From contig CAMBDS010000001.1 of NCBI GenBank assembly GCA_945865405.1, forward strand, positions 62,001 through 126,000: a DNA stretch of 64,000 nt, given 5' to 3'. The stretch is from Caldithrix abyssi DSM 13497. GTDB lineage: Bacteria; Electryoneota; AABM5-125-24; Hatepunaeales; Hatepunaeaceae. The translations under genes were made by a program, and so were the position numbers. Shown here piece after piece: positions 7,049-9,528 of the stretch; positions within the stretch are counted from its first letter, which is position 1, and each line of letters starts with the position of its first letter. The notes under the pieces are model-generated. The model did no database searches. It worked only from the letters and a program-made list of their open reading frames with translations, and had not been told where the DNA came from.

Positions 7049-7145
7049 GATTCAAGTGGCTGGCGAGTTCATAACAAGTTTACAGCCCAGTTGAATCGAG
7101 GGGACTATCAATAACATCAACAAATATTGGGTGGATCAACATCCT

Positions 7146-9434
7146 ATGAGTCATAAGTTCACCGAAAGGATCATACGGATAATTTGTATGCTGATGATTG
7201 TCTGGCTCAGCGGATCGAAGGAGCTTAATGCTCAACCTGCACAGGACCTATTTGAGCTCTACGACTGGGGCGAAACTCCGGCTGATCTATTTGCCGATGT
7301 TTATCAAACAACAAATGGAGATTACCTGATTTGCGGACAGAGAGTTTACGAGCCTTGGTTACTAAGGGTAGATCGTGACGGAAATAGATTGTGGAGCTAC
7401 ACAGAGTCGGGGGCGAGACTATTTTCTGTCATCGAAGCTGATAACGGCGATGCAGTTTCAACAGGAACGATTGGTGAGGACTTTTTATACGGCGTGATCC
7501 GAGTCGATCAAGAGGGCGAATTATTATGGTCACGATCTTTTGGTGATGGAAGAGGTACCGCTATTATTGAGTTAAAAGAGGGCGACTTTATTGCCTGTGG
7601 TGGTGTGGAGGGACGCGGATATATGAACAGGTTGGACGGCGATGGCCGCCAGATTTGGGGCGTGGGAATCAATTGCCTACTCCTTCAGTCAATGCGAGAA
7701 ACTGATGGCGGAGTAGTGGCAGTTGGACATACAGCAGGTAGTCGTGGATTTGCTGTAAAAGTCGATCTGGAGGGTGATATAGTGTGGTCAAGAATTTATC
7801 CACTTAACGGAGGACGAAACCCTCAATATTTCGCGTCTGTAGTTTCGATCCCGGACGGTTTTGCGATTGGCGGTTTCTATGCAGTTGATCATCAAGGTTT
7901 TTCGATCACCAAGATCAATCCGCAAGGAGAAGTATTGAACCAGGATTTATTGAATCTCGGCGACGGTCAGTATTGGTTCGAATCGATTGATAAGATGTCC
8001 GACGGGGGATTTGTTCTTGCAGGATACACAACTGCGGGATATGATTTTCCTTATATCGTTAGAGTGGATAGGGAAAGCAACATTCTATGGTCTTATGACT
8101 GGGCAGATTCGGTTAATCAGCGCCCCAGACAACGAAACGAACACAATCAGTTGTATAGTGTAATCGTCACAAATGACAATGAAATAACGGCGTGCGGAAC
8201 CATGATGAACATGGACATCAACAAGGCTGGAGATGGTTTTCTGGTGCGGTTTGAACCGGACACTTATGGTCCCATCATTATCTACACTTCTCCTGACGAT
8301 TCAATTATTAATGCCCTTCCCGGTGATTCGATCAGGTTTGTCGTTGTTGCAAGGAGTAGAGATCGACACGAAATTGAATATCAATGGCGGATAGGGGATA
8401 CCGAGCTTGGAACAGATACGGTCGAAACCATACAATTCGATGAATTTGGCGAATTTCCCATCTCCTGCGTAGTTTCGTCTCAAAACGTCTCAGTTGAAGT
8501 TGATTGGGAAGTACATGTCACCGACCTTTTCATCTCCGTCTTCACACCGGATACCCTCAATCTCACTCTCCGGCGAGGTTCGGAAGTCGATTTTGCCATC
8601 GATGAAGTTCGCTACTCACCCGGTGGCGAACCGGAGTACAACTGGACGAAAACTGATCTCAATTCAAATCAGTCCGAAGATTTAGGCCAGAATTCTCACG
8701 CCACAATCGACTTCCCTTGGTCAGGCGATTTCACCGTCGAAGGCAAAGTATCCCGCGACGAGTCGAGTGACAACGTCATCTGGAACGTTGCAGTTCGCGG
8801 CGCGATCTGGGCCTACGTGCCGGAAGCTCTTGCGTTCGACATTGAACCCGAAAGCGTTGTACGCTTCGAGGTTGCGCCGAGCGAGCCGGAGAACGAGTCT
8901 TTAAGCATTCAGTGGCTTGTCGATGGGGAGGTTGCGGCGGAGGATACTGTTGCGCTGGAGTGGAGATTTGGACAGGTTGAAAACCTGTCGTACCAAGTCG
9001 CTGTGGTTGTGGCAGACTCGGTTGAGGCGGATACGGTGACGTGGGACGTGACGGTGCGGGACTTGGGGGTGGGGGAGCAGGAAGAGGTTGGACAGGCAGG
9101 GACGCCTGTCCTCCTGAGTGTCAGTCCGAATCCGTTCAATTCGATGCTGACGATACGGTACGCGGGAGGGCTCGATAAATCGGCCCCTACGCGACTGGCC
9201 ATCTACGACCTTTCTGGCCGCGAGATTGCTGATCTGCCTGACAGGCAGGGACGCCTGTCGTACCGGGCGGGAGGAAAAATTACCCCCCCTACCCCCCCTA
9301 CCCCCCCTGCAATAGCAGGGGGGGATCGCCGGACAGTCGTCTGGAACGCCTCCTCCGTCCCCACCGGAGTCTATCTGGTGCGGCTGGAAAATGGGGGAGA
9401 GGTTGCGACGCGGAAGGTTGTTTTGATGAGGTAG
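7146..9434 (+). CDS. Type IX-sorted secreted beta-propeller-like protein (paralogue 1)
   Basis: About 762 residues from the ATG at 7146; a GTG five codons upstream is also open. An N-terminal signal peptide (IICMLMIVWLSGSKELNAQP) is followed by repeated units of the form DGG..L.G.......V..DG...WS, consistent with a multi-bladed propeller to about residue 380. Ig-like or Y_Y_Y-like modules follow. The C-terminal sorting domain runs from SVSPNPFNSMLTIRY through IYDLSGREIADL to VPTGVYLVRLENG and KVVLMR. The protein should cross the outer membrane by the type IX system and be anchored at the surface. The last 200 codons contain at least four palindromic repeats translated in frame (8971, 9091, 9240, 9301). 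Paralogues lie at 30643, 34939, 47016 and 51557. Ligand unknown. Confidence 0.88.
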   Translation: MSHKFTERIIRIICMLMIVWLSGSKELNAQPAQDLFELYDWGETPADLFADVYQTTNGDYLICGQRVYEPWLLRVDRDGNRLWSYTESGARLFSVIEADNGDAVSTGTIGEDFLYGVIRVDQEGELLWSRSFGDGRGTAIIELKEGDFIACGGVEGRGYMNRLDGDGRQIWGVGINCLLLQSMRETDGGVVAVGHTAGSRGFAVKVDLEGDIVWSRIYPLNGGRNPQYFASVVSIPDGFAIGGFYAVDHQGFSITKINPQGEVLNQDLLNLGDGQYWFESIDKMSDGGFVLAGYTTAGYDFPYIVRVDRESNILWSYDWADSVNQRPRQRNEHNQLYSVIVTNDNEITACGTMMNMDINKAGDGFLVRFEPDTYGPIIIYTSPDDSIINALPGDSIRFVVVARSRDRHEIEYQWRIGDTELGTDTVETIQFDEFGEFPISCVVSSQNVSVEVDWEVHVTDLFISVFTPDTLNLTLRRGSEVDFAIDEVRYSPGGEPEYNWTKTDLNSNQSEDLGQNSHATIDFPWSGDFTVEGKVSRDESSDNVIWNVAVRGAIWAYVPEALAFDIEPESVVRFEVAPSEPENESLSIQWLVDGEVAAEDTVALEWRFGQVENLSYQVAVVVADSVEADTVTWDVTVRDLGVGEQEEVGQAGTPVLLSVSPNPFNSMLTIRYAGGLDKSAPTRLAIYDLSGREIADLPDRQGRLSYRAGGKITPPTPPTPPAIAGGDRRTVVWNASSVPTGVYLVRLENGGEVATRKVVLMR
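8971..8989. repeat. Palindrome gacaggttgaaaacctgtc inside a sorted-protein gene
   Basis: Arms gacaggtt/aacctgtc with a four-base loop, followed by gtacc. It encodes GQVENLSY at a position where the two closest paralogues carry a different palindrome. Confidence 0.75.
9091..9110. repeat. Palindrome gacaggcagggacgcctgtc, first copy
   Basis: Read in frame as GQAGTPV just before the SVSPNPFNS sorting-domain start. The identical 20-mer recurs at 9240-9259 in another reading frame of the same gene. Confidence 0.85.
9240..9259. repeat. Palindrome gacaggcagggacgcctgtc, second copy
   Basis: Identical to 9091-9110 but read in a different frame (DRQGRLS) within the sorting domain, between the YDLSGR strand and the VVWNASS strand. 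Confidence 0.85.
9281..9324. repeat. Poly-C triplet followed by C7-tgcaatagca-G7 palindrome in a gene
   Basis: Three tandem accccccct units lead into a hairpin of seven C and seven G around tgcaatagca. It encodes TPPTPPTPPAIAGGD inside the sorting domain. Related elements lie at 35155-35188, 48716-48750 and 49079-49102, all inside genes. Confidence 0.8.
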
Positions 9435-9478
9435 TGCTTAGTACTTAGTGCTCAGTGCTCAGTACTTAGTGCTCAGTA

Positions 9479-9528
9479 GCTGAAGCAATCTTCAGCACTC
9501 CGAACAAGAGCGGCTTGAAAAGCCGCTC
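9479..9528. repeat. Two adjacent palindromes (gctgaagc type and gagcggct type)
   Basis: gctgaagcaatcttcagc (9479-9496) and gagcggcttgaaaagccgctc (9508-9528). The same two families are adjacent again at about 30425-30477 in the opposite order, so the combination itself recurs. Confidence 0.8.

Follow-up and report, generated by a model that had tools for sequence, protein, structure and literature searches.

The 20-nt palindrome that stands twice in a gene of the 64,000-nucleotide stretch analysed here (the window) is a REP element, with a 7-bp stem and GGAG or GTAC at its foot, and several hairpin families occupy the flexible loops of secretion tails. Our overall reading, to which we give a probability of about 0.85, is that RAYT-associated REPs settled in tolerant loops of T9SS tails and then spread among the paralogous tails. 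The window corresponds to C1:62001-126000 of a 2.76-Mb genome in 43 contigs.

Two in-frame copies in a T9SS-cargo gene

The gene and the elements within it lie at the following window positions.

7131-9434, plus strand: T9SS-cargo gene, 767 aa, secreted, with a PKD-like region and a C-terminal T9SS type A sorting domain (ORF, TIGR04183)
8971-8993, minus strand: possible REP-like hairpin, GACAGGTTGAAAACCTGTC with GTAC, in frame (GQVENLSY); sole exact-type copy among the sampled loci
9091-9114, minus strand: REP copy 1, hairpin 9091-9110 with foot GGAG (ctcc at 9111-9114), in the linker immediately preceding the sorting domain; GQAGTPV-LL
9126-9431, plus strand: coding part of the sorting domain, PNPF to stop, 102 aa against the usual 78 (tail alignment, model)
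9168-9190, minus strand: REP of another family, GGGCTCGATAAATCGGCCC, foot GTAG (ctac), coding GLDKSAPT in loop A; shared with intergenic DNA
9240-9263, minus strand: REP copy 2, hairpin 9240-9259 with foot GTAC (9260-9263), in loop B; DRQGRLS-Y
9282-9325, plus strand: inverted repeat, C-run / CCCCCCCTGC-AATA-GCAGGGGGGG (TPPTPPTPPAIAGGD), in-frame loop B sequence; 35156 and 49069 hold related copies

A preliminary description had reported an identical 20-bp palindrome twice in this gene, read in two frames that both stay open, and the sequence agrees. GACAGGCAGGGACGCCTGTC is found exactly at 9091-9110 and 9240-9259, with no other window site within 3 mismatches (chance expectation 0.01), and both copies lie inside the open frame of the 767-aa ORF, copy 1 being read as GQAGTPV (codon phase 1) and copy 2 as DRQGRLS (phase 0). 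The term palindrome needs qualification: the sequence does form a hairpin, but the symmetry is imperfect, with 7 Watson-Crick pairs and one G-T. As DNA, it folds into an 8-bp hairpin with a 4-nt loop, the folding energies being -7.6 kcal/mol (z = -2.6) for one copy and -9.6 kcal/mol (z = -4.3) for the other, as expected for the short palindrome (20-40 nt) of a REP. On the strand opposite the gene, the 20-nt hairpin is preceded by a conserved foot tetranucleotide, GGAG (9087-9114, minus) or GTAC (9236-9263, minus); the canonical GTAG is not that of this family.

Sequence identity between the two copies ends at the edge of the element, where the plus strand reads CTCC at 9111 and GTAC at 9260, and the flanks are unrelated, indicating that neither arose from the other by local copying of element and flanks together. 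Both placements are found again in paralogues (site 1 at C24:24798, site 2 at C1:314449 and others), so some copies were inherited via duplication or gene conversion rather than inserted in the window gene. Copy 1 lengthens or replaces the linker, the exact empty form of which is unreadable.

The host protein scores 30.4 bits against TIGR04183 (cut-off 23), which places its C-terminus among T9SS type A sorting domains, while its matches to PF18962 / PF18911 are weak. At least 12 long paralogues with 41-56% identity are present in the genome. The closest match to the protein has 36% identity and no close one-to-one orthologue was found; we therefore infer the empty site of this gene from its paralogues. 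The window tail was modelled with AlphaFold (mean pLDDT 76, core >90); the model contains seven strands, and its structural neighbours include the T9SS cargo domains 8glk and 8qb1, with modest scores. Of the three REP-coded stretches, one precedes strand 1 of this model, one separates strands 29-35 and 44-49, and one lies in the 59-90 loop, which is poorly defined and where copy 2 forms residues 61-67 between strands 55-58 and 91-96. Runs of CTTAGTGCTCAGT occur 3' of the gene (window 9430-9480).

A dispersed REP family and its RAYT neighbourhood

Allowing at most 2 mismatches, GACAGGCAGGGACGCCTGTC has 28 copies dispersed through the genome, 8 of them exact, against none for the reversed-pattern control. 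When every sampled copy was translated, nine proved to be in frame within a T9SS tail or the linker that leads into it. Another T9SS gene (C15) has one further upstream, and one is in the gene of an FG-GAP/UnbV protein (C1:38913), a 963-aa protein for which no PDB relative was found. The family is found mostly between genes, the remaining copies being intergenic or in short or 5' ORFs of doubtful status. Nine of 28 copies within about 45 kb of tails corresponds to P = 5e-10 under random placement, although several are paralogous and not independent. The proposal that a nucleic-acid element, not a duplicated peptide, underlies the repeat is upheld by intergenic copies with unrelated flanks, by copies adjacent to a RAYT gene, and by the occurrence of all three codon phases within genes.

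In the family-level relative G005, 92 copies were found within 1 mismatch, almost all in short or no ORFs, and many are paired, facing opposite ways 43 nt apart, which is the usual REP pairing. One G005 locus (C55; L154:3286-3380) holds three copies close together near the 3' end of a 645-aa ORF. Among perfect hairpins with a 7-bp stem and 6-nt centre in the sampled genome, the foot is GTAG in 26, GTAC in 24 and GGAG in 20, while five other tetranucleotides gave 4, 0, 2, 0 and 2 in the same hairpin class. A 7-bp-stem collection was set aside as a proof of covariation, since it had been selected for pairing. A separate intergenic palindrome family, TGGCAGACGAGGGCGTCTGCCAG, has six window copies (9578, 14909, 34812, 38242, 49463 and 63367), and a similar hairpin flanks the C30 RAYT.

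The spread of REPs of this sort is attributed to RAYT (TnpA_REP), an HUH tyrosine transposase that acts on single strands. The genome contains six Y1_Tnp genes. Close variants of the element (CAGTAC-GACAGGCATTCCTGCCTGTC; CAGTAC-GACAGGCATTCYTGCCTGTC) stand on either side of one of them, the RAYT gene on contig C13. The flanking hairpins have the loop ATTCCT rather than the GTCCCT of the window copies; the pairing of this RAYT with the element is thus one by family, not by identity. The C13 RAYT is a Y1 HUH transposase, being above the PF01797 cut-off and carrying the SNHVHL motif. It falls just below the cut-off of NF047646, the REP-associated tyrosine transposase (E 1e-21, 77.3 bits against 80), while a sister RAYT gene at C1:216883 reaches 95.2 bits. 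The only PDB match of the C13 enzyme is E. coli TnpA_REP (4er8, E 2e-5). Judged from this sequence context, the C13 RAYT is probably the cognate enzyme of the window REPs. Other RAYTs in the genome and in family-level relatives adjoin their own hairpin types. In vitro, other RAYTs handle single-stranded hairpins and use the foot tetranucleotide in recognition and cleavage (PMC8266576).

RAYT genes (L158-L173) occur in all eight of the eight family-level relatives, several with tagged palindromes of their own such as GTAG-CACACGCCTCCGTGCGTGTG and GTAG-ATGCGACACTCTTGTCGCAT. Within the open frame of the RAYT at C1:216142-217206 (L030:9142-10206), its own hairpin, GCCACCATCTTGGTGGC, recurs several times in tandem and in frame, read as RNATILVA, so that this transposase gene apparently harbours its own element.

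Tagged hairpins in the loops of T9SS tails

The hot-spot statistics cover one complete contig (C1, 351 kb) and sampled stretches of one genome of the species, with a greedy ORF caller, hand-set hairpin criteria and tails that are paralogous. To avoid dependence on one family, we counted any non-redundant hairpin on C1 tagged with GTAG, GGAG or GTAC. Such hairpins occur at 20.2 per 10 kb in T9SS tails (last 390 bp) versus 20.8 in intergenic DNA, 3.0 in the bodies of T9SS genes (tails versus bodies, P 6e-10), and, in other genes, 3.6 in the final 390 bp and 3.0 elsewhere, being about 7-fold rarer in T9SS gene bodies and other coding DNA than in the tails. With the tag reversed, the tails gave 7 raw hits versus 29. 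As neither this control nor the ends of other genes showed a comparable excess, it depends on the tag and is a property of the tails, not of gene ends in general.

Across 102 extracted tails, tagged hairpins lie in the linker (10), loop A (8) and loop B (16), that is, 34 in 10.1 kb, and the β-strand regions of the same tails hold 1 in 13.3 kb. The C1 tails contain 19 distinct hairpin sequences, some of them likely due to chance, and because the tails are paralogous the hits are not independent. Raw repeated k-mer density was dropped as evidence, being inflated by tail paralogy alone; in its place we used k-mers that also occur in intergenic DNA, and counts of tagged hairpins for which reversed tags, gene bodies and 3' ends served as controls.

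GLDKSAPT, common in loop A of this genome's tails, is the translation of GGGCTCGATAAATCGGCCCCTAC, an element that is also intergenic with unrelated flanks (window 1872 and C1:204753). Loop A measures 23-25 aa with the REP-coded peptide versus 23 aa; given this near-constant length, the REPs there look like replacements and are not explained by simple insertion. In loop B, the stems GACAGGC, GGTCGAT, GTCGGGC, GACGGGC, GGGCGTA and ACCGGCG are unrelated yet self-pairing. Paralogues combine loop A and loop B types in different ways, LDKSAPT and PGFGEAG each being found both with DRQGRLSY and without it, indicating that gene conversion or recurrent insertion also acted.

Other repeats are translated in these tails as well. 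The C-run inverted repeat CCCCCCCTGCAATAGCAGGGGGGG (9282-9325, 35156, 49069) is common to tail loops (HAIAGGVGG / TPPAIAGGD, both strands) and intergenic sites; it has no clear tetranucleotide tag and is not clearly a REP. Simple or tandem repeats of intergenic type, CTCCAAACTCCAAACTCC and TTCATCCTTCATCC, are translated in frame in T9SS loops and linkers (L042, L111-L119) as SKLQTPNSK and HPSSLIL.

It had also been proposed that relatives lacking the inserted stretches would support insertion, and the tails of relatives mostly do lack them: in paralogues and in two family-level relatives, the tails have the base length of 78 residues without the loop-B stretch. From PNPF to stop, tails measure 78 aa in both comparison genomes, G005 and G007. 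Tails longer than 84 aa number 29 of 102 here, 2 of 46 in G007 and 1 of 48 in G005, with top-scoring tails over-represented in the relatives, and a strict tagged hairpin is present in 20 of 102, 0 of 46 and 2 of 48, respectively; one of the two in G005 is again in the entry linker. The 46 hairpin-free tails of G007 indicate that the hot spot is lineage-specific. A cleaner case outside the tails is the following gene.

C1:23753-25378 (L029:3753-5378), minus strand: glutamyl-tRNA synthetase (GltX) with an in-frame REP, GTAC + GACAGACATTCCTGTCTGTC (alignment)

Its element, GACAGACATTCCTGTCTGTC, is a sister variant of the window REP and codes for TDRNVCRT in the anticodon-binding domain; each of these REP-coded residues is absent from 97-100% of 80 aligned relatives. 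No relative was seen to have the same peptide encoded by different DNA, the observation that would have spoken against insertion.

Origin of the tail elements and comparison with known systems

In the reading we prefer, a RAYT would spread REPs as single-stranded hairpins, mostly between genes, and protein tolerance would filter the insertions that fall into coding DNA. The loops and entry linker of the T9SS tails, which number about 150 per genome, would then be the largest tolerant coding target, where frame-keeping copies survive and are read as arbitrary loop peptides, later spreading across paralogous tails by duplication or gene conversion. Mobilisation may lie with the C13 RAYT, and the tolerance would reflect purifying selection rather than benefit.

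Two simpler accounts of the repeat have little left to recommend them. Ordinary coding DNA does hold about 3 tagged hairpins per 10 kb, equal to the reversed-tag control, as chance or GC-rich composition might give; the 2 exact copies in the window against 0.01 expected, and 28 against 0 in the genome, already refute chance as the source of this family, and we regard it as the least credible account of all. Repetition of a short protein motif instead of DNA is scarcely more credible, being refuted by the shift of frame: the two copies lie in different frames and give different peptides, and further copies are intergenic.

Two further accounts deserve more weight, though both are unlikely. The element might have been acquired once and then have spread purely as coding DNA, by paralogue duplication and gene conversion without continuing transposition. 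At least six loop-B copies have flanks and position in common, the site-1 flanks are the same in the window gene and in C24, and reassortment of the loop-A and loop-B types has produced many combinations, all of which fits such a history. However, the element stands at three tail sites, in both orientations and all phases, and also in the FG-GAP protein, as a variant in GltX, and at many intergenic sites with unrelated flanks; gene conversion clearly contributes to the spread but cannot account for the origin. Slightly less probable still is that the tail hairpins are useful, as mRNA structure near the 3' end or as DNA sites, with pairing kept while the stem sequence drifts. The same loop-B position does carry unrelated pairing stems in different paralogues (GACAGGC, GGTCGAT, GTCGGGC, GACGGGC) with a CTAC or GTAC foot. 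Yet strict tagged hairpins are missing from about 80% of the 102 tails, from G007 and from most of G005, other genes have no excess in their last 390 bp, and the same stem families are intergenic, as expected from repeated insertion of different families.

More tentatively, T9SS tail loops might be a standing landing ground for several REP families, whose shared hairpins make the tails recombine, so that the REP/RAYT system would drive mosaic diversification of the roughly 150 tails; we consider this broader picture possible but rather doubtful.

REPs are called extragenic, and those in frame are regarded as rare accidents. Here, several REP families repeatedly entering the same loops of one repeated domain amount to a natural insertion experiment: the tail REPs reveal which of the T9SS signal's loops can take an insertion, and they offer many in-frame junctions for reading REP target choice. 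They also explain odd, low-complexity-looking loop peptides of T9SS cargo as the translation of mobile DNA, a point of relevance to annotation and to domain models in which the tails score poorly.

Our search of the open-access literature found no report linking REP or RAYT to T9SS tails. In-frame intragenic REPs as such are already known; their concentration in secretion-tail loops appears to be new. The host domain of the REPs resembles the T9SS type A domain (TIGR04183 / PF18962) in the seven strands of its model and in its structural hits to cargo domains, but departs from the usual 78 aa between PNPF and stop in the 29 of 102 tails that exceed 84 aa. Rickettsia palindromic elements are likewise palindromic repeats that lie in frame in protein genes and are translated (PMC10969869, PMC3733652). 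They measure about 100-150 bp and have a conserved peptide, whereas the element described here has 20-24 bp and, as it is read in any frame, no conserved peptide; an identity with them was thus rejected, the 20-bp repeat giving a peptide that differs by frame. Closer are the GTAG-tagged REPs and REPtrons, which have in common with it a 20-nt hairpin after a fixed tetranucleotide, dispersal, pairing (here in a relative) and a RAYT flanked on both sides (PMC3733652, PMC8266576, PMC2817692). Different from these, the foot here is GGAG or GTAC, with GTAG only in this genome's other families, and about one third of the copies are in frame within T9SS-tail coding DNA. Intragenic REPs of several species also lie in frame in many kinds of ORFs, including tRNA synthetases, and flexible linkers and loops were suggested to be tolerant (PMC3733652, BMC Genomics 2013); there the hosts are unrelated proteins with DNA repair genes prominent, whereas here the T9SS sorting tail takes most of the elements, in fixed loops and from several REP families.
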